Source: Pseudomonadota bacterium
GTDB taxonomy: Bacteria > Pseudomonadota > Alphaproteobacteria > Acetobacterales > Acetobacteraceae
Length of the DNA stretch: 12,992 nucleotides
NCBI GenBank assembly: GCA_021815835.1
Contig: JAKAZN010000009.1
Span: 1 to 12,992, forward strand
Direction of reading: 5' to 3'
In this document: positions 1,716-12,992 of the stretch, in pieces
Position numbering within the stretch: the first letter of the stretch is position 1
Layout: the number at the start of each line of letters is the position of its first letter
Translations under genes and position numbers: made by a program
Notes under the pieces: generated by a model
Databases searched by the model: none
What the model was told of the DNA's origin: nothing
Seen by the model: the letters and a program-made list of their open reading frames with translations, nothing else

Positions 1716-1760
1716 AATTGCCAGACAACTTGACAACTTCTCCGACGGTATGCTTGCTCC
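1716..1760 (+). promoter_or_regulatory. Candidate promoter/operator of the dehydratase operon
   Basis: The 198-bp gap after gpsA is GC-rich except here. A perfect tandem repeat, GACAACTT GACAACTT, occupies 1724-1739. TTGCCAGACAA (1718-1728) fits the FadR-type GntR half-site pattern TNGTNNNACNA with one mismatch. TTGACA (1730-1735) looks like a -35 box, but TATGCT (1749-1754) is only 13 bp downstream; at 17 bp the hexamer is CTTGCT. The region is probably regulatory, but the exact boxes are uncertain. Confidence 0.35.
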
Positions 1761-1789
1761 GGCCACCTCTCCCCGCCCCAGGACCCCCC

Positions 1790-3523
1790 ATGCCGCGCAA
1801 AAACCCCGCCGAGCTTCGTTCCGCCCGCTGGTTCGGCCCCGCCGATCTGCGGAGTTTCGGTCATCGCTCCCGCGCGATGCAGATGGGCTACGCGCCGGAG
1901 GAATGGAGCGGCAAGCCCGTCATCGCCATCGTCAACACCTTCTCCGACCTCCAGCCCTGCCACCTGCATTTCAAGCATCGCGTCGATGACGTGAAGCGCG
2001 GCATCCTGATGGCCGGCGGGTTTCCGGTGGAACTTCCCGCGCTGTCGGTGTCCGAAAGCTTCGTCAAGCCGACGACGATGATGTATCGCAACATGCTGGC
2101 GATGGAGACCGAGGAGCTGCTCCGCTCCCACCCCGTCGATGGCGCGGTGCTGCTGGGCGGCTGCGACAAGACCACGCCCGGCCTGCTGCTGGGGGCCACC
2201 AGCATGAACATCCCGGCGATTTTCGTCCCCGCCGGGCCGATGCTGCGCGGTAATTTCCAGGGCAAGCAGCTCGGGTCCGGCTCCGATAGCTGGAAGTATT
2301 GGGACGAATTGCGCGCGGGCAAGATCACCGAGGCGGACTGGGCCGGCGTCGAGGCCGGCATCGCGCGCTCCTACGGCACCTGCATGACGATGGGCACGGC
2401 CTCCACCATGACCGCGATCGCCGAGGCCGTGGGGATGGTGCTGCCGGGCGGATCTTCGGTGCCCGCCGCCGATGCGGGGCATATCCGGCTCTGTTCGGAA
2501 TCGGGACGGCGGATCGTGGAGATGGTGTGGGAGGATTTGACGCCCGCGCGCATCCAGACCCGGCCCGCGTTCGAGAACGCGATCGCGGTGGCGATGGCGA
2601 TGGGATGTTCGACCAACGCGATCATCCACCTGATCGCCATGGCCCGCCGCGCCGGCCAGGATATCGGCCTCGATGATTTCGAGCGCGCCTCCCGCCGCGT
2701 CCCCGTCATCGGCAATGTGCGCCCGAGCGGGTCCACCTACCTGATGGAGGATTTCTATTACGCCGGCGGCATCCGCGCGCTGATGGCGCGGATCGCGCCG
2801 CATCTGCATCCCGGCTGCCTCACCGTCAGCGGCCGCAGCGTCGGCGAAAACATCGCCGGCGCGCGGGTGTTCAACGAGGACGTGATCCGTCCGCTCGACA
2901 ATCCGATCTACGGCGAAGGCTCGCTCGCGGTGCTGAAAGGCAACCTGGCCCCCGATGGCTGCGTCATCAAGCCCGCGGCGATGGACCAGCGCTTCCTGAA
3001 ACATGCCGGCCCGGCCTTGGTGTTCGACGATTATCCGTCGATGAAAAAGGCGGTGGACGACGAACACCTGGACGTCACCGCCGATCACGTCCTGGTGCTG
3101 CGCAACGCCGGCCCGCAGGGCGGACCCGGGATGCCCGAATGGGGCATGTTGCCGATGCCGAAGAAGCTGCTGAAACAAGGCCATCGCGACATGCTGCGGC
3201 TGTCGGATGCGCGCATGAGCGGGACCAGCTACGGCGCCTGCGTGCTGCACGTGGCCCCCGAATCCTGGATCGGCGGGCCGCTCGCGCTGCTGCGCACCGG
3301 CGATATCGTGGCGGTCGATGTCGATGCGCGCTCGATCCGCATGGAGGTCGCCGACGCCGAGCTGGCGCGCCGCCGCGCCGCCTGGACGCCGCCCGCGCCG
3401 CGCTTCGAACGCGGCTACGGCTGGATGTTCAGCCAGCACATCCAACAGGCGGATCAGGGCTGCGATTTCGATTTCCTCCGCACCGAATTCGGCGCCCCGG
3501 TCGCCGAACCCGTCATCTACTGA
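1790..3523 (+). CDS. IlvD/Edd-family sugar-acid dehydratase (L-arabinonate dehydratase-like)
   Basis: An Fe-S dehydratase that converts an aldonic acid (such as L-arabinonate, D-xylonate or a relative) to the 2-keto-3-deoxy acid. The 577 residues match the length of the pentonate/hexonate dehydratase branch. The three Fe-S cysteines are visible: C57 in DLQPCH, C125 in GGCDKTTPG and C198 in YGTCMTMGTASTM. The C-terminal catalytic serine motif is LSDARMSGTS (S477). It differs from true dihydroxy-acid dehydratase (IlvD) by these motif forms and by the RraA-like partner, so valine/isoleucine synthesis is less likely. The ATG at 1790 is chosen because CAGGA (1780-1784) precedes it and family similarity begins there; a TTG at 1718 would add 24 Pro-rich residues overlapping the putative operator. 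The rraA-like gene follows after 12 bp. The exact substrate cannot be read from the sequence. Confidence 0.88.
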   Translation: MPRKNPAELRSARWFGPADLRSFGHRSRAMQMGYAPEEWSGKPVIAIVNTFSDLQPCHLHFKHRVDDVKRGILMAGGFPVELPALSVSESFVKPTTMMYRNMLAMETEELLRSHPVDGAVLLGGCDKTTPGLLLGATSMNIPAIFVPAGPMLRGNFQGKQLGSGSDSWKYWDELRAGKITEADWAGVEAGIARSYGTCMTMGTASTMTAIAEAVGMVLPGGSSVPAADAGHIRLCSESGRRIVEMVWEDLTPARIQTRPAFENAIAVAMAMGCSTNAIIHLIAMARRAGQDIGLDDFERASRRVPVIGNVRPSGSTYLMEDFYYAGGIRALMARIAPHLHPGCLTVSGRSVGENIAGARVFNEDVIRPLDNPIYGEGSLAVLKGNLAPDGCVIKPAAMDQRFLKHAGPALVFDDYPSMKKAVDDEHLDVTADHVLVLRNAGPQGGPGMPEWGMLPMPKKLLKQGHRDMLRLSDARMSGTSYGACVLHVAPESWIGGPLALLRTGDIVAVDVDARSIRMEVADAELARRRAAWTPPAPRFERGYGWMFSQHIQQADQGCDFDFLRTEFGAPVAEPVIY

Positions 3524-3535
3524 ACGGAGCACGCC

Positions 3536-4252
3536 ATGCCCCTGTCCCCCGAAACGCGCGCCAAGCTGCGCGGCGTCAGCACCGCCACGCTCGCCACCGC
3601 GCTGTTCAAGCGCGGCTTGCATCGCCAGATGATCCAGGACGTGCTGCCGCTGTCGGCCCCGAAACAAACCATGGTGGGTGAGGCGGTCACGCTCCGCTAC
3701 ATGCCCGCGCGCGAGGACCTCAACCGCATCGACGTGTTCACCAACCCCGCGCATCCGCAGCGCCACGCGATCGAGAACTGCCCCGCCGGCGCGGTGTTCG
3801 TGATCGACAGCCGCAAGGATGCGCGCGCCGCCTCCGCCGGCGGCATCCTGGTGACGCGGTTGATGGCGCGCGGCGCCGAGGGCGTGGTGACCGATGGCGG
3901 CTTTCGCGATTCGGCGGAAATCGCGGGGCTCGGTTTCCCCGCCTACCACCACCGCCCCTCTGCCCCCACCAACCTGACCCTGCACCATGCGATCGAGGCC
4001 AACGTCCCGATCGGCTGCGGCGACGCGCCGGTGTTTCCCGGCGACGTGATGGTGGGCGACGCGGACGGGGTGATCGTGCTGCCCGCGCATCTGGCCGACG
4101 AGCTCGCCGCCGAAGCGGTGGAGATGACCGCCTACGAGGATTTCGCGACCGAGAAGGTCCGCGCCGGCGCGTCCATCACCGGCCTCTATCCCGCCACCGA
4201 CCCCGCGAACCTGACCGCGTTCGCCGCCTGGCGCCGACGAAACGGACGCTGA
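3536..4252 (+). CDS. RraA/HMG-aldolase-like family protein
   Basis: A 238-residue protein of the RraA-like fold, a family that includes the RNase E inhibitor RraA and metal-dependent 4-hydroxy-4-methyl-2-oxoglutarate (HMG) aldolases. The core motif GGILVTRLMARGAEG...TDGGFRD is present with R124-D125, the residues used for substrate and metal binding in the aldolases, so an enzymatic role is more likely than RNase regulation. Database entries often name such proteins 'ribonuclease activity regulator RraA'. The protein is longer than E. coli RraA (about 160 residues), mainly through N- and C-terminal additions. The ATG is preceded by GGAG (3526-3529) at 6 bp. It sits 12 bp downstream of the dehydratase, so it may cleave or otherwise process the 2-keto-3-deoxy product; this is inference. 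Confidence 0.85.
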   Translation: MPLSPETRAKLRGVSTATLATALFKRGLHRQMIQDVLPLSAPKQTMVGEAVTLRYMPAREDLNRIDVFTNPAHPQRHAIENCPAGAVFVIDSRKDARAASAGGILVTRLMARGAEGVVTDGGFRDSAEIAGLGFPAYHHRPSAPTNLTLHHAIEANVPIGCGDAPVFPGDVMVGDADGVIVLPAHLADELAAEAVEMTAYEDFATEKVRAGASITGLYPATDPANLTAFAAWRRRNGR

Positions 4253-6283: not shown

Positions 6284-6994
6284 CTACCAGGTCGCCCGTC
6301 CGCCCGACAGATCGAACACCGCCCCGGTGCTGAACCCACTCCCGGGCCCGCACAGGAACGCCACCATTTCCGCAACCTCCGCCGGCTCCAGGAACCGCCC
6401 CAGCGGAATCCGCGCCAGCAGATCGGCGCGGCGTTCGGGCGTGATCGCGCGCTCCATCGCCGTGCGCACCACGGTCGGCGTGATCGCGTTCACCAGGATG
6501 CCGCGATCGGCCACTTCCTTCGCCAAGGTCTTCGCCAGCGCGATCATCCCCGCCTTCGCCGCCGCGTAGGGGCCGGCCAGCGCCGTGCCCTCCTTCGCCT
6601 GCACCGAGGACATCAGCACGATCCGTCCCGCCCCGCGTTCCCGCATCCCCGGCACCACCGCGCGGCAGGTCAGGAAGGCGGAGACCAGGTTGGTGTCGAT
6701 CACCCGGCGAATGTCCTCCGGCGCCAGCTCCCACACCGGCGCCACCGGCCCCAGGATGCCGGCGTTCACCACCAGCGCCGCGATCGGCCCGGCACGCGCG
6801 ATCGTTTCATCCGTCGCCGCCGCCAGTGCCTGCGCGTCCGTGACATCGACCGCGAGCGCCAGCGACGCCGCCTTCGCGTCGGCCGAGAGGTCCCATGACA
6901 CCGGCACGAACCCGTCCTGGCCCAGCCGCGCGAGCACCGCCTGGCCGATGCCGCCCGCGCCCCCGGTCACGACCGCCGCGCCGCGGCCGGTCAT
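6284..6994 (-). CDS. Short-chain dehydrogenase/reductase (SDR)
   Basis: A 236-residue classical SDR that oxidises or reduces a hydroxyl/keto group with NAD(P)(H). Visible motifs are TGGAGGIG (10-17), NAG (77-79), N102, S130 and YAAAK (Y143, K147). An acidic D35 at the end of the second strand favours NAD(H) over NADP(H). The C-terminus ends FSTGAVFDLSGGRATW, close to the usual 'TG..ldvdGG' ending. The ATG at 6994 overlaps the permease stop by 4 bp (ATGA), marking it as the last gene of the importer operon; the frame is open further upstream, but that part lies inside the permease gene. In this context it probably acts on the imported sugar or on a derived sugar acid. FabG-like annotation is possible, but no fatty-acid genes are nearby. 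Confidence 0.9.
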   Translation of the reverse strand: MTGRGAAVVTGGAGGIGQAVLARLGQDGFVPVSWDLSADAKAASLALAVDVTDAQALAAATDETIARAGPIAALVVNAGILGPVAPVWELAPEDIRRVIDTNLVSAFLTCRAVVPGMRERGAGRIVLMSSVQAKEGTALAGPYAAAKAGMIALAKTLAKEVADRGILVNAITPTVVRTAMERAITPERRADLLARIPLGRFLEPAEVAEMVAFLCGPGSGFSTGAVFDLSGGRATW

Positions 6995-7812
6995 CCCTTG
7001 ACGCCCCCCGCCATCAGCCCGCCCACGAACCAGCGTTGCAGGCAGGCATAGAGGATCATCGGCACGACGGCGATCAGGGTCAGGATCGCGAACAGCTTGC
7101 CAGGATCTGTCATGTACGGCCCCTGGTAATAGAGCGGCGCCAACGGCAGGGTCTTCATCGCATTGCGCGTCATGATGACCAGGGCCAGGAAGAACTCGTT
7201 CCAGGCGAACAGGAACTCCCAGATCGCCACCACGATCAGCGCCGGGCGGATCAGCGGCACGACGATGCGCCACAGCACCGTCAGGCTGGACGCGCCGTCC
7301 AGGGTCGCGGCCTCCTCCAGCTCGTCCGGGATCGCCGCCATCGCCTCGTTGACGATGACGGTGGCGAACGGGATGCCGAGCGCGGCGTTCGGCCCGATCA
7401 GTCCGAAATAGCTGTTGGTCAGGCCGAGATTCTTGAGCAGCACGGTGATCGGGATCAGCAGCGAGGCGAGCGGCAGCAGCAGCGCCGACAGCACCAGCAG
7501 CAGGATCGCCCGCCCGAACCGGATCTTGAGCCGCGCGATGGCGAACGAAAGCGTGACCGCAGCGAACAGGGTCAGCGCCACGCTGCCCGCCGCGATCGCC
7601 ACGCTGTTGGCGAAGAACCGTCCGAGATGGCCCGAATGCAGCACGACCACGTAGTTCGCCAGGGTCGGGCGCGCCGCGATCAGCACGGGATCAAAACTGT
7701 CGGCGGGGGTACGAAACGAGATATCGACCATGTAGATCGTCGGCACCAGGCTCAGCGCCGTCGCCGCGATCAGGATCATCAGCGCGATCCGCTGCATCGC
7801 CCGCGGCGTCAT
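6991..7812 (-). CDS. Carbohydrate ABC transporter permease 2 (MalG-like)
   Basis: A 273-residue inner-membrane subunit of a CUT1-type sugar importer with about six membrane segments; the first is LMILIAATALSLVPTIYMV near residue 11. The periplasmic segment starts FRTPADSF and a segment resembling 'NYVVVL' follows, as in MalG relatives. The cytoplasmic EAA loop that contacts the ATPase is ELEEAATLDGASSLTVLWRIVVPLIRPAL. The C-terminus ends QRWFVGGLMAGGVKG, the hallmark 'GL..GavKG' ending of MalG-type permeases. The ATG at 7812 overlaps the stop of permease 1 (7809-7812, ATGA) and its own stop overlaps the SDR start, so the three genes are translationally coupled. The open frame continues to 8208 but overlaps permease 1 and is not coding there. 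Confidence 0.94.
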   Translation of the reverse strand: MTPRAMQRIALMILIAATALSLVPTIYMVDISFRTPADSFDPVLIAARPTLANYVVVLHSGHLGRFFANSVAIAAGSVALTLFAAVTLSFAIARLKIRFGRAILLLVLSALLLPLASLLIPITVLLKNLGLTNSYFGLIGPNAALGIPFATVIVNEAMAAIPDELEEAATLDGASSLTVLWRIVVPLIRPALIVVAIWEFLFAWNEFFLALVIMTRNAMKTLPLAPLYYQGPYMTDPGKLFAILTLIAVVPMILYACLQRWFVGGLMAGGVKG

Positions 7813-8753
7813 GGCCGCGCGCTCTTCGCCGCCAGCGACAGGCCGCCGCCCGCCAGGCGGTATTCCACCGCAACGAGCGCCAGCGCCAGCAGGAACAGCA
7901 CCACGGCGACCGCCGAGGCGTAGTGCATCTGGTCCTGCACGAACCCGGTCTGGAAGATGTAGGTGGCGAGCGTCTGCGAGGAATCCGCCGGCCCGCCCTC
8001 GGTCATCAGGTAGATCAACGGGAATTGCTGCAACGCCTGGATGGTACCCAGCACCACGAGCGACGTGGTGGTGCCGCGACACAGTGGCCAGAGGATATGG
8101 CGCACCCGGTTCCAGCCGCGCGCGCCGTCGATCTCGGCCGCGTCCAGATGCTCGCGGTCGATCGCGCTCAGGCCGACGCAATACATCAGCACGAAGAACC
8201 CCGACCATTGCCAGACATTGACCGCGATGATGGCGAGGCTCGCGGTGGCCGGCGCGCCGAGCAGCGCGGGGAACGCGCTCGCGAGCCCCAGCGCGCGGAA
8301 CAGCCCATACAGCAGCCCATAATCGGAGGCGTAGAAGGTATTGAACACCAGCGCGATCACGGACGGCGTGACGACCATCGGCAGGAACAGCAGGGTGCGA
8401 AACACCGCCCGTCCGCGCGGCAGATGAAGCTCGATCAGGATCGCCAGCGCGAAGCCGATGGCGATCTCGAAGGCCAGCGAGACCACCACCCAGAGCAGCG
8501 AATTACGAATGGCGGTGCCGAACACCGGGTCCGCCGCCGCCATCGTGTAATTGCCGAGGCCCCAGCGATGATGCGGGCCGATCAGGCTGGAGACAAGATT
8601 GGCCGCGATCGGCTCGGCGATGAAGACGGCGAACAGCGCGGCGGCGGGGAGGACGTAGAGCGCCGCCTCCCACCGCCCGGCACCCAGGATTGCCCCGCGC
8701 CGGCGCGCGCCGGCGCGGGGCAATCCTGGGTGCCGGGGCGCGCCCGCCGCCAT
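7809..8753 (-). CDS. Sugar ABC transporter permease 1 (MalF/UgpA-like)
   Basis: A 314-residue inner-membrane permease. The first membrane segment begins near residue 31 (AALYVLPAAALFAVFIAEPI); later hydrophobic blocks include SLLWVVVSLAFEIAIGFALA, LLFLPMVVTPSVIALVF and ASAVAVVLFLLALALVAVEY. The EAA loop is DREHLDAAEIDGARGWNRVRHILWPL. ATG 8753 is chosen because AAGG lies about 8 bp upstream and no ATG, GTG or TTG occurs in frame between the palindrome and membrane segment 1. As a result residues 6-26 (Pro-, Gly-, Arg-rich) are encoded by the 62-bp palindrome at 8676-8737, an odd N-terminus for this family. It starts 19 bp after the binding-protein gene. The main body is confident; the first about 26 residues are not. 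Confidence 0.9.
   Translation of the reverse strand: MAAGAPRHPGLPRAGARRRGAILGAGRWEAALYVLPAAALFAVFIAEPIAANLVSSLIGPHHRWGLGNYTMAAADPVFGTAIRNSLLWVVVSLAFEIAIGFALAILIELHLPRGRAVFRTLLFLPMVVTPSVIALVFNTFYASDYGLLYGLFRALGLASAFPALLGAPATASLAIIAVNVWQWSGFFVLMYCVGLSAIDREHLDAAEIDGARGWNRVRHILWPLCRGTTTSLVVLGTIQALQQFPLIYLMTEGGPADSSQTLATYIFQTGFVQDQMHYASAVAVVLFLLALALVAVEYRLAGGGLSLAAKSARP
8676..8737. repeat. Perfect 62-bp spacerless palindrome
   Basis: Positions 8676-8706 are the exact reverse complement of 8707-8737: 31-bp arms, no spacer, no mismatch. Pairing fails at 8675/8738. The outer arm reads CCCGGCACCCAGGATTGCCC and the centre is an alternating CG-rich tract. It lies in the 5' coding end of permease 1, just after the binding-protein gene. 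In RNA either strand would fold into a hairpin of nearly 30 bp. No second copy is present in the window. Confidence 0.97.
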
Positions 8754-8757
8754 CCCG

Positions 8758-8787
8758 CTTGCCTTGCGCCCCCTACTTGCCTTGCGC
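8758..8787. repeat. 12-bp direct repeat at binding-protein/permease junction
   Basis: CTTGCCTTGCGC occurs exactly at 8758-8769 and 8776-8787, an 18-bp period. On the minus strand the first-transcribed copy encodes the binding protein's last residues (AQGK before TAG), and the second supplies the AAGG that acts as ribosome site for permease 1. It looks like a local duplication. Confidence 0.85.
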
Positions 8788-10098
8788 TTCCGCGACCGCC
8801 TGCACCGCCGCCATCGCCGCCGCCGGCGTCTTGGTGCCGGCGCCGATCGCTTGCAGGTTGGACACCAGCGCCTGGTAGATCACCGGGTTGCCGATCTGGT
8901 GCGGGTGGGCGTGGGCGAGCTCGGCGATGTAGCTGTCATAGAGGCGCCGCACCGCCGGCGGCATCGTGCCCTGCGGGCGCATGCCCCCGAAGGCCGGCAG
9001 GTCATTGAGCTGGTTCAGCGCCACCTGCTCGCCGCCGCCGCTGATGAGCTCCTTGAGCACGATCGCCGCCGCCCGCGCCTCGGCCGGCGATTTCGCCGCC
9101 GTCTTGGTCACGCCCCAGCCCACATCCACCCCGCCGAGCGGCGCGCTGGCCGCTCCGCCCGCCTTCAGTGCGGGGAAGAAGAACTTGTCATAGCCGGACA
9201 TCGTCTGCAGCTTGGCATCGGTGGAGAGATGCGTCTCCTGCAACCACCACGAGCCGAGCGAGATCATCCCCACCCGTCCGACGGCAAACAGATTGGCCCC
9301 GGTCGGGTATTGCAGCGCGGCGAGCGCCCCGTCCTGCACCACCTTGCGGGTAAACAATTCGCCCCAGACCGTTGCCGCGGCGATCATGCCGGGCCGGGTC
9401 CAGACCGGCTTGCCGATTTCGGCCGCGAGCAGGTCCTTGAGGTCGGTCTGCGCGGCGATCTGCATATAGACCCAGTTGTCGAACACGCCGGTGGCGCCGC
9501 CCTGGTACATGCCGATGAAGCCCGCCTTGCGCAGCTTCGCCGCGTCCGCGACCAGTTCGTCGAAGGTCGCGGGCGGTTTGGCAATGCCCGCCGCGTGGAA
9601 CGCCGCGCGATCGAGCCAGAGGTTCAGCACCTCGGCTTCCATCGGCAGCATGTAGAACTTGATGTCGCCGGCGGGGTTGCCGAGCCGTGCCTGGGCCAGC
9701 AGCGCCGGGGCGAAATGCCGCTCCCACCCGGCACCCCAGGCGGCCTTCGCCATCGCATCCAGCGCCAGCAGATGTGGACGGTATTGCTGGGTGTAGTTGC
9801 CCGGCGTGAGACCGATGATATCGGGCAGGGTGCCGGACGCGGCGGCGGCCTTGAGGGCGGTGAAATACGCCGTATGCGGCTGGATGGTGGCGCGAATCCG
9901 GATATCCGGATGCGCCTTCTCGATCGCCGCGACCATCGCCGCCATGGTGGGCGCGACCGGGCTCCAGGACCAGAGCGTGACGGTGACGGGTTCCGCGGCG
10001 CGGGCGGGGCCGGACAGCGCCGGCACGGCGAGGCCGAGCAGCACGGCGAGGCCGGTTGCGGCGCGGCGAAGCGCCGCGCGGGGACGATGCGTGAGCAT
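8773..10098 (-). CDS. Extracellular solute-binding protein, family 1 (sugar ABC importer)
   Basis: A 441-residue periplasmic substrate-binding protein of the MalE/UgpB kind. A Sec signal peptide is clear: basic n-region MLTHRPRAALRRA, hydrophobic core TGLAVLLGLAVPALSG, cleavage near ARA-AEP (about residue 34). The mature start VTVTLWSW, then DIRIRATIQP...YFTALKAAAASGTLPDII and NLWLDRAAFHAAGIAKPPATFDELVADAAKLRKAG, are typical of family 1 sugar-binding proteins. The start at ATG 10098 is preferred because it gives a normal signal peptide; AAGGAGG (10111-10117 on the opposite strand) lies 12 bp upstream, a rather long spacing. The upstream in-frame codons to 10146 are an extension without signal character. 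First gene of the operon, divergent from iclR. The sugar bound cannot be named from sequence. Confidence 0.92.
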   Translation of the reverse strand: MLTHRPRAALRRAATGLAVLLGLAVPALSGPARAAEPVTVTLWSWSPVAPTMAAMVAAIEKAHPDIRIRATIQPHTAYFTALKAAAASGTLPDIIGLTPGNYTQQYRPHLLALDAMAKAAWGAGWERHFAPALLAQARLGNPAGDIKFYMLPMEAEVLNLWLDRAAFHAAGIAKPPATFDELVADAAKLRKAGFIGMYQGGATGVFDNWVYMQIAAQTDLKDLLAAEIGKPVWTRPGMIAAATVWGELFTRKVVQDGALAALQYPTGANLFAVGRVGMISLGSWWLQETHLSTDAKLQTMSGYDKFFFPALKAGGAASAPLGGVDVGWGVTKTAAKSPAEARAAAIVLKELISGGGEQVALNQLNDLPAFGGMRPQGTMPPAVRRLYDSYIAELAHAHPHQIGNPVIYQALVSNLQAIGAGTKTPAAAMAAVQAVAEAQGK

Positions 10099-10110
10099 GA
10101 CGGACGGAAT

Positions 10111-10117
10111 CCTCCTT
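10111..10117 (-). promoter_or_regulatory. Ribosome binding site of the solute-binding protein
   Basis: The minus strand reads AAGGAGG here, a perfect Shine-Dalgarno match, 12 nt before the ATG at 10098. It supports 10098 over the 16-codon longer reading from 10146, which would place this site inside the gene. Confidence 0.65.
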
Positions 10118-10147
10118 CCCGAAGCGATGGCAGGGCCTGGTCTCACC

Positions 10148-11108: not shown

Positions 11109-11141
11109 GGACTCGCCGGCACCGGCGCCTTCCATGCATAA

Positions 11142-11149
11142 AGAGAGGA
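11142..11149 (+). promoter_or_regulatory. Ribosome binding site of pstS
   Basis: AGAGAGGA ends 5 bp before the ATG at 11155, a good purine-rich site. It overlaps codons 3-6 of the alternative start at 11134, so 11155 is preferred. Confidence 0.7.
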
Positions 11150-11154
11150 TTCCG

Positions 11155-12255
11155 ATGTCACGTCGCACCGAAGCCGGCCGTGGGCCTGGCCGTCGTCATC
11201 TGCTCGCGGGCGCCGGCGCGCTCGCCGCGCTGGCGGGCCTCGCCGCTTTTGCCGCCGCGCCCGTGCAGGCCGCCACCACCAACATCGTGGAGACAGGGTC
11301 GAGCCTGCTCTACCCGCTGTTCAACCTCTGGGTGCCCGGCTACACCAAGGCCAATCCCGGCGTGCGGATCACCACCAAGAGCACGGGCAGCGGGACGGGC
11401 ATCTCGGAAGCCATCTCCGGCGTCGCGCAGATCGGCGCCTCCGACGCCTATCTGTCCGACGCGCTGATGAAGCAGCACCCGGGCATGCTGAACATCCCGC
11501 TGGCAATCTCCAGCCAGATGATCAACTTCAACCTGCCGGGGCTGAACGGTCAGCACCTGAAATTCTCCGGCCCGGTCCTGGCCGGGATCTACAGCGGCAA
11601 GATCACCAAGTGGAACGACCCGGCGATCGCCAAGCTCAATCCGGGCGTGAAGCTGCCGGACCACGCGATCATCACCGTGCACCGCACCGATGGCAGCGGC
11701 GATACCTTCATCTTCAGCCAGTACCTGTCCTTCTCCACCCCGGCGTGGTCGAATTCGACAGGGTTCGGCACCACGGTCAGCTGGCCGGCCGCACCCGGCG
11801 CGATCGGCGCCGAGGGCAATCCCGGAATGGTCAACGCGCTCAAGACCAACCCGTATTCGATCGCCTATATCGGCGTGAGCTTCAAGCAGGCGATCGACGA
11901 GAGCAAGCTGGGCGAGGCGCTGCTCGAGAACAAGGCCGGCAAGTTCGTGCTGCCGACGGTGGCCAACGTGCAGGCCGCCGCCAACGCCACCTCCGCGCAT
12001 ACGCCGAAGGACGAGCGGATCAGCCTGATCTTCGCCCCCGGCGCCTCTTCCTACCCGATCATCAACTACGAATATGCGATCGTGAACGCCAAGCAGCCGA
12101 ACGCCGCCATGGCGGGCGAGCTGCGGAAGTTCTTCACCTGGGCGATCTCGCCCAAGGGCGGCAACGCACCGCATTTCTTGGCGGCGGTCAGCTTCGTGCC
12201 GCTGCCGGCCAGCGTGGTGAAGCTCAGCGCCGCGCAGATCGCCGCGATCAAGTGA
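11155..12255 (+). CDS. pstS: Phosphate ABC transporter substrate-binding protein PstS
   Basis: A 366-residue periplasmic phosphate-binding protein of the high-affinity Pst system. A twin-arginine motif (GRRHLLAG, R13-R14) precedes a hydrophobic core, with cleavage near VQA-ATT (about residue 39), so Tat export is likely. Phosphate-site motifs are visible: TGSSLLYPLF (48-56), STGSGTGI (76-83), ASDAYLSD (D97) and RTDGSGDTF (R177-D179, S181). SGKITKWNDPAIAKLNPG and SYPIINYEYAI are also PstS hallmarks. Start 11155 has a good ribosome site; ATG 11134 would add seven residues. It lies 75 bp after iclR on the same strand. I see no convincing Pho box in that short gap, so transcription may start inside iclR or read through from it. 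It is followed by a terminator-like hairpin and pstC. Confidence 0.95.
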   Translation: MSRRTEAGRGPGRRHLLAGAGALAALAGLAAFAAAPVQAATTNIVETGSSLLYPLFNLWVPGYTKANPGVRITTKSTGSGTGISEAISGVAQIGASDAYLSDALMKQHPGMLNIPLAISSQMINFNLPGLNGQHLKFSGPVLAGIYSGKITKWNDPAIAKLNPGVKLPDHAIITVHRTDGSGDTFIFSQYLSFSTPAWSNSTGFGTTVSWPAAPGAIGAEGNPGMVNALKTNPYSIAYIGVSFKQAIDESKLGEALLENKAGKFVLPTVANVQAAANATSAHTPKDERISLIFAPGASSYPIINYEYAIVNAKQPNAAMAGELRKFFTWAISPKGGNAPHFLAAVSFVPLPASVVKLSAAQIAAIK

Positions 12256-12281
12256 TCGCCTGACGCCGAGCCTGGACGACG

Positions 12282-12322
12282 CGGCGCCGGCGGGTCACCC
12301 TGCCGGCGCCGTTCGGCTTTTT
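12282..12322 (+). terminator. Rho-independent terminator/attenuator between pstS and pstC
   Basis: CGGCGCCGGC (12282-12291) pairs exactly with GCCGGCGCCG (12302-12311); inner GGG/CCT adds three more pairs around a 4-nt TCAC loop. A TTTTT run (12318-12322) follows after 6 nt. Such hairpins after a binding-protein gene often make it more abundant than the membrane subunits. The U-run is a little distant, so partial termination is likely. Confidence 0.72.
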
Positions 12323-12340
12323 GGCCCGGGGGACGCCGAT

Positions 12341-12374
12341 GCCCCTGACGATAATGGGCCCCTGACGATAATGG
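12341..12374 (+). repeat. Perfect 17-bp tandem duplication upstream of pstC
   Basis: GCCCCTGACGATAATGG is present at 12341-12357 and again at 12358-12374 without spacer or mismatch. The second copy ends 9 bp before the pstC ATG and supplies its only ribosome-site-like GG. The unit does not resemble the E. coli Pho box (CTGTCATA repeats with 11-bp period), though it shares CTGA-CAT-like character only weakly. Confidence 0.9.
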
Positions 12375-12383
12375 AATGATACG

Positions 12384-12992
12384 ATGAAGTTCCGCCGCCT
12401 GCTCGCCCTGATCGCCGGTATCCTGCCGGCCAGCCTGATCGCGGTGATCGGATTCCTCGCCATCTATTCCTGGCCGGCGCTGCGCTTCAACGGCTGGCGC
12501 TTCGTCGTCGGCACGACCTGGAACCTCGGCAACACCTACGGCAATCCCATCGTCCGCGACGGAGTGACGATGCTGCCCGGGGCACAGTACGGAATCCTGG
12601 TCCTGATCGTCGGCACCGTGCTGTCCACCGTGATCGCGCTGGCCCTCGCGGTGCCCACCGGAGTCGGGGCGGCGATTTTTCTTGCCGAGGCCGTCCCGGG
12701 GCGGATGCGGCTCTGGCTGTCCTTCCTGGTCGAACTGCTGGCCGCCGTACCCTCGGTCGTGTTCGGCCTCTGGGGCTACGCGGTGCTGATCCCGCTGCTC
12801 GGCCAGCACGTCTTTCCGGTGATGGAGAAGGTGCTGGGCTTCATCCCGATCTTCGCCGGCCCGACCGGCAGCGGCTACGGGCTGCTGACCGCGGGCGTTG
12901 TGCTGTCGTTGATGATCGTGCCGCTGATCGCCGCCACCTTGCGCGATGCGATCCTGGCCGAACCCATGGTCCTGCGCGAGGCCGCCGCGGCC
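12384..12992 (+). CDS. pstC: Phosphate ABC transporter permease PstC, 3'-partial
   Basis: An open frame of 203 codons from ATG 12384 to the right edge, with no stop. It encodes the N-terminal part of the inner-membrane permease PstC. Membrane segment 1 covers about residues 7-28 (LALIAGILPASLIAVIGFLA), followed by the conserved FVVGTTWN (40-47). Segment 2 begins YGILVLIVGTVLSTVIALAL, then GVGAAIFLAE, LVELLAAVPSVVFGLWGY and GVVLSLMIVPLIAATLRDAI. The last residues LREAAAA are the beginning of the EAA loop that meets the ATPase PstB. A weak GGA (12373-12375) precedes the start at about 8 bp. Downstream pstA, pstB and phoU are expected off the window. The N-terminal stretch RDGVTMLPGAQ is slightly longer than usual. 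Confidence 0.93.
   Translation, partial: MKFRRLLALIAGILPASLIAVIGFLAIYSWPALRFNGWRFVVGTTWNLGNTYGNPIVRDGVTMLPGAQYGILVLIVGTVLSTVIALALAVPTGVGAAIFLAEAVPGRMRLWLSFLVELLAAVPSVVFGLWGYAVLIPLLGQHVFPVMEKVLGFIPIFAGPTGSGYGLLTAGVVLSLMIVPLIAATLRDAILAEPMVLREAAAA

Follow-up and report, generated by a model that had tools for sequence, protein, structure and literature searches.

A perfect 62-bp palindrome inside the first codons of an ABC permease gene: a probable template-switch product at a binding-protein/permease junction

The window, namely the whole stretch of 12,992 nucleotides that was analysed, belongs to a metagenome bin of 2.83 Mb (575 contigs, 62% complete) and carries on its minus strand an operon for an ABC transporter in which, read along the gene strand, the binding-protein gene with its TAG stop codon is followed by 19 nt, permease 1 and permease 2. 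The features that are relevant for the following discussion are:

6991..7812, minus strand: ABC permease 2 (BPD_transp_1), 273 aa
7809..8753, minus strand: ABC permease 1 (BPD_transp_1), 314 aa
8676..8737, minus strand: perfect spacerless palindrome, 62 bp, touching permease 1 codons 6-26 (+17 to +78 of the gene)
8676..8706, minus strand: native arm (+48 to +78), the downstream one on the gene strand, encoding RRRGAILGAG, residues 17-26, conserved in orthologues
8707..8737, minus strand: copied arm (+17 to +47), the upstream one on the gene strand, reverse complementary to the native arm at every position
8754..8772, minus strand: spacer of 19 nt from the binding-protein stop to the permease ATG, which is preceded by AAGG
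8773..10146, minus strand: extracellular solute-binding protein (SBP_bac_1), encoded ahead of permease 1
12281..12312, plus strand: second hairpin, 14-bp, followed by TTTTT, after a PstS-like gene (PBP_like_2, 11134-12255) and before the ORF starting at 12384

The start of permease 2 was read from the sequence, at the ATGA in which it overlaps the stop codon of permease 1, the mechanical ORF (6991-8208) being longer; the AAGG that precedes the permease 1 ATG is a putative ribosome-binding site. On the plus strand, the hairpin at 12281-12312 has the lowest folding energy (−40.8 kcal/mol) among the 60-nt windows of 11134-12992 and, with its T-tract, looks like an internal terminator in the 12256-12383 interval, ahead of an ORF that is truncated where the contig ends and that is read as PstC-like, though it has no Pfam match. 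At 1718-4252 of the same strand an IlvD/Edd-type dehydratase gene adjoins that of an RraA-like aldolase, possibly reflecting a sugar-acid pathway near the sugar transporter of this operon.

The first-pass annotation had described a perfect palindrome of 62 bp, with 31-bp arms and no spacer, over residues 6-26 of permease 1, and direct inspection of the sequence bears this out: all 31 of 31 arm positions are complementary, with no mismatch, and the 8676-8737 stretch is its own reverse complement throughout. The distance of 16 nt from the permease ATG that was also given is correct if counted from the A, the palindrome starting 16 nt downstream of it, but the ATG (8753-8751) and the palindrome are actually separated by 13 nt. 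The binding-protein stop codon (TAG, 8775-8773) is found 35 nt upstream of the palindrome, in agreement with its placement just past this gene. Chance, initially regarded as negligible, is excluded as the source of such a structure, the longest other spacerless palindromes sampled having arms of 10-13 bp. Specifically, the next longest one has 10-bp arms in 61 of the 575 contigs of the bin (462,592 bases, window included), the longest one has 13-bp arms in 400,000 bases of a relative assembled as one contig, and 10-bp arms in the 247,845 bases sampled from five same-genus genomes, so that no spacerless palindrome with arms longer than 13 bp, besides that at 8676-8737, is present in the 1.11 Mb of own-genome and relatives' DNA sampled. 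Stems with short spacers are commoner than spacerless ones: when spacers of 0-8 nt were allowed, arms of up to 14 bp were found in the own-genome sample, and the same-genus sample reached 21-bp arms with a 4-nt spacer. The hairpin with these 21-bp arms lies at the very end of its contig (L177:1-46, contig C141 of genome G005), possibly marking an assembly break at a strong palindrome.

The RNA of the 62-nt palindrome is predicted to fold with −73.8 kcal/mol into a 29-bp stem closed by a 4-nt loop, and the fold of the DNA strand has a z value of −11.8 with respect to shuffled sequences. The extreme in-frame RNA hairpin envisaged at the binding-protein/permease junction is supported at the level of prediction. 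None of the Rfam families matches the window at gathering score. An intrinsic terminator was considered and ruled out: there is no terminator-like site in 8500-8950 and no U-tract follows the stem, which therefore should not terminate transcription by itself.

Alignment of the permease N-termini, which had been proposed as a check, distinguishes the two arms. In the two nearest orthologous operons (L034 and L035, from same-genus genomes), the permeases are 84% and 86% identical to permease 1 of the window, respectively, and the N-termini read VSAAVQAGAPPRRTV-RRRGAVLGAGRLEAALYV in L034, VSAAVQAGAPPRRTVRPRRGAVLGARRLEAALYV in L035 and MAAGAPRHPGLPRAGA-RRRGAILGAGRWEAALYV in the window. The downstream arm aligns to the orthologues codon by codon, with RRRGAVLGAG (L034) and PRRGAVLGAR (L035) at the positions of the native-arm peptide. 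The upstream arm does not align and occupies the place of a short, unrelated segment of the N-terminal tail, being thus an inverted copy of native permease sequence. The flanks are syntenic: the permease sequence that follows and the last part of the binding-protein gene align normally. Further orthologues were sought class-wide at E ≤ 1e-60, and among 385 genomes only the genome of the window was retrieved.

Arms that are mutually reverse complementary, with relatives keeping just one of the two, are what is expected of template switching, and a native downstream arm with an exact inverted copy upstream and normal flanks is the footprint that a replication template switch would leave. From these comparisons, a slip of DNA copying most likely generated the palindrome in a single step, as a mirror copy of the first codons of the gene itself. 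In such an event, 31 nt of the permease coding sequence (approximately codons 17-26) would be copied in the reverse-complement orientation and written directly upstream, replacing part of the old N-terminal tail and leaving the reading frame intact, so that the start of the permease message would become a hairpin of 29-31 bp. As regards an earlier, imperfect inverted repeat that may have seeded the switch, L034 contains, by eye, a 9-bp inverted repeat at the spot of the palindrome, and the native arm includes the self-complementary GCGCCGGCGC. The hosts were also searched for SbcD. The genus may lack the cleavage of hairpins, to judge from profile scores: none of six same-genus genomes has SbcD above the curated cut-off (the incomplete genome of the window included, with weak matches in four of the others), and one of the 20 genomes searched does. 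However, the idea of a permissive host carries no weight, because of the incompleteness of the own genome and the weak matches in four others, and because this cut-off is passed by just 8 of the 14 control genomes.

The position of the palindrome was evaluated in a survey of binding-protein-to-permease junctions. Profiles located 55 such pairs in the fetched loci, 51 after removal of the duplicates L005, L006, L007 and L120; since the binding-protein profile was built from loci found with the Pfam model and from the protein of the window, weakly related binding proteins are missed. The counts include the window itself, while the junction of contig C10 of the same genome and the PstS-like one are outside the 51. 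A 150-nt junction block containing a 50-nt fold that is matched by at most 2% of the coding blocks of the same locus (p ≤ 0.02) was found in 28 of the 51 pairs, as opposed to 7 of 51 for the block around the permease stop codon. When dinucleotide shuffles were used (50 junctions, the block of L146 being left out because it contains N), z ≤ −3 was obtained for 26/50 junctions, 7/51 permease ends and 67/562 coding blocks. Arms of 9 bp or more without mismatch are present in 17/50, 2/51 and 6/562 of them, respectively. Part of this enrichment may be an intergenic effect, as the permease-end control, in our reading, lies for the most part outside intergenic DNA; moreover, orthologous sets are present among the junctions, which are thus not independent. 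Restricting the comparison to the 11 orthologous junctions left a difference of modest size, with 7/11 as opposed to 3/11 permease ends in the locus coding-block test, and 7 as opposed to 1 in the shuffle test. The junction zone (−200 to +30) is the single fold minimum of the locus in 15 of 22 loci (16 with the tie of L050), a count that was set aside because the minima of L039 and L041 lie in the binding-protein gene.

With these figures the comparison with malE and malF made in the first-pass annotation finds support: binding-protein/permease junctions are enriched in stable folds, in line with the principle set out in PMC5927463 and PMC9045158. The junction of the window (z, −8.4) carries a stable stem above background, no coding block of its locus folding as well; however, the palindrome is not placed between the two genes, outside their reading frames, but covers permease codons 6-26. 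Its position is probably non-random, because the class of junctions to which it belongs is enriched in stable folds. About half of the junctions (24/50) have no strong fold. The orthologous junction of L039 lacks one (p 0.46), and two further junctions in the genome of the window do not reach p ≤ 0.02 (L116, 0.228; L117, 0.083). On contig C10 of the genome of the window (L064:7512-7542), a hairpin with 14-bp arms is found 6 nt past the stop codon of another binding-protein gene and ahead of its permease. By eye, the binding-protein/permease gap of L037 (3227-3374) contains palindromic units of the GGTCCAGGGG/CCCCTGGA type, which resemble an insertion of a repeat family at the same junction.

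The reading that is favoured here, with a probability of roughly 0.55, joins the origin by template switch to a role as junction hairpin, which would allow for the production of much binding protein and little permease. By analogy with junction stem-loops, which are known to shift the balance from permease towards binding protein, we infer that the palindrome acts in this way from inside the permease frame. If folded in the cell, the hairpin would block 3'-to-5' exonucleases coming from cuts in the permease message, and the binding-protein message would be protected. It would also slow ribosomes just past initiation at the permease, since the stem starts at about +17, a position that lies near the leading edge of the initiating ribosome. 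The net effect would be abundant binding protein along with limited permease. A broader and rather doubtful extension is that template switching may be a recurrent source of hairpins that set binding-protein/permease ratios, and that here it may have renewed one in frame as a translation-gated barrier to decay: ribosomes entering the gene would melt the stem, which would otherwise reform and protect the binding-protein message.

A serious rival, quite possible even if it is not the preferred one, is that of a neutral or near-neutral accident, in which the switch would have hit a change-tolerant N-terminal tail ahead of the first membrane helix, generating a hairpin with no role. The perfect palindrome is known in one species only, and the tail varies freely among 16 aligned homologues (out of 120 listed), both in favour of such an accident. 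When codons 2-31 were replaced by synonymous ones, none of 500 recodings folded as well as the actual sequence of the window (z, −6.75), but in seven relatives the fold was no better than after synonymous recoding (z between −1.31 and +1.25, with 0.10 as the smallest p). An in-frame hairpin conserved in the orthologues, which had appeared convincing by eye, was rejected with this test. Selection keeping such a hairpin in the clade should lead the first codons of the relatives to outfold their synonymous alternatives, and they do not; it is because the in-frame folds of the relatives are no stronger than their codons predict that the accident must be taken seriously. On the other hand, the palindrome falls at a kind of junction in which stable folds are enriched, a stem of −73.8 kcal/mol at the start of a gene would be unlikely to leave translation unaffected, and the structure is kept, at the protein level, in a second and slightly different sequence.

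The latter is P0001, a permease that differs from that of the window by A177T only and whose contig is given as 39,252 bases long, instead of 12,992. Its first 60 residues are identical to those of the window, with the peptides of both arms present, while the copied-arm peptide is absent from the first 60 residues of the other 119 of the 120 homologues listed (298 found). Because residue 177 differs and the contig is a different and longer one, P0001 is read, at the protein level, as probably deriving from another assembly of the same species. This bears on the possibility, which had been raised from the beginning, that an arm was joined to its own complement by a fold-back event during library preparation or assembly. 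Fold-back chimeras do produce spacerless palindromes, and a bin with 575 contigs and 62% completeness is a fragmented one. However, a simple fold-back gives the arm, the inverted arm and then the inverted flank, and here the next flank is the correct permease sequence in frame; no other such palindrome was found in the 61 contigs sampled, and P0001 shares the N-terminus, its single differing residue lying outside it. With the syntenic flanks and a nearly identical protein on a different, longer contig, the artefact is considerably weakened: the palindrome is probably not an assembly error, and an artefact of this sort is regarded as very unlikely.

Even lower is the probability that a mobile palindromic element of the REP, MITE or Rickettsia type landed in frame, as had also been suggested. 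Such elements are known elsewhere, and a spacerless palindrome inside a gene, in a member of an alphaproteobacterial family, would fit with them. The genome-wide search for further copies, however, returned a single full copy of the 62-mer in the 62% complete bin. The only other match in this genome (28 bp, 89%, on contig C237) was judged to be due to chance and lies in a stretch that we take to code for a carboxypeptidase-Taq-like motif. The 39 other genomes contain no full copy and one partial match (45 bases, 80%, in G006); viral contigs contain neither the exact arm nor detectable relatives of permease 1, phages gave no match, and the plasmid collection gave only matches of 26-28 bases in two records. 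A repeat family was consequently rejected, its members being expected in multiple copies, and one arm is native gene sequence: the palindrome is a single-copy inverted duplication. Equally improbable is a protein-binding or cruciform-forming regulatory DNA site, for which the perfect dyad symmetry and the gene for an IclR-type regulator in the window could be invoked, but the palindrome lies inside a reading frame, is not kept in orthologues, has no sigma-70-type promoter-like site around it (8500-8950) and is far longer than typical operator dyads.

If the favoured reading of a template-switch product acting as a junction hairpin is correct, a single step is enough to give an operon a new tuning hairpin, and a hairpin of this kind can be placed within a reading frame. 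The enrichment of folds at the junctions provides a comparative data set with which this could be tested. In any case, the locus shows in readable form how one replication error may give rise to an RNA stem of 31 bp within a bacterial operon, at a place where such stems are believed to adjust the ratios between proteins.

Precedents exist for the single components of this interpretation. Template switching is described as turning quasipalindromes into perfect ones in E. coli (PMC7202029), with inverted-repeat perfection also treated in PMC8604942, and as being able to create hairpins such as microRNA and rRNA stems (PMC8794818). As in the quasipalindrome-associated mutations of the Ripley model, studied with thyA and lacZ reporters in E. 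coli, one arm appears to have been replaced by an exact complement of its partner (PMC7202029), but here the arms are spacerless, measure 31 bp and lie in frame where a gene of an uncultured bacterium begins, and a pre-existing quasipalindrome is without certain reconstruction. With the microRNA and rRNA stems the palindrome would share the origin of a perfect stem in a single event (PMC8794818), although it is found in a bacterial mRNA and within a coding sequence. According to PMC5927463, the binding-protein message is the stabilized part of E. coli ABC operons, and according to PMC9045158 stem-loops after binding-protein genes lower the translocator transcripts in clostridia. The palindrome resembles these stem-loops, i.e. 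the malE-malF type and the internal terminators of clostridial ABC importers, in its position between binding protein and permease and in its GC-rich stem. It differs from them in lying inside the permease frame rather than in the intergenic region, in having no U-tract and in being far stronger (−73.8 kcal/mol) than the 191 clostridial stem-loops (from −38.3 to −10.1 kcal/mol) reported in PMC9045158. The numerous perfect inverted repeats, up to 284 bp, of nematomorph mitochondrial genes also lie inside functional protein-coding genes; however, both of their arms encode conserved residues (PMC6649704), whereas the palindrome described here is present once and is conserved in its downstream arm only. 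When the literature was searched for perfect palindromes that lie in frame in bacteria, no paper was found with the terms used, which is weak evidence of absence. Thus, what is known is the perfection of inverted repeats by template switching, on one side, and hairpins at binding-protein/permease junctions, on the other; what we call new is their combination, with a spacerless stem with 31-bp arms set inside the frame of the permease.
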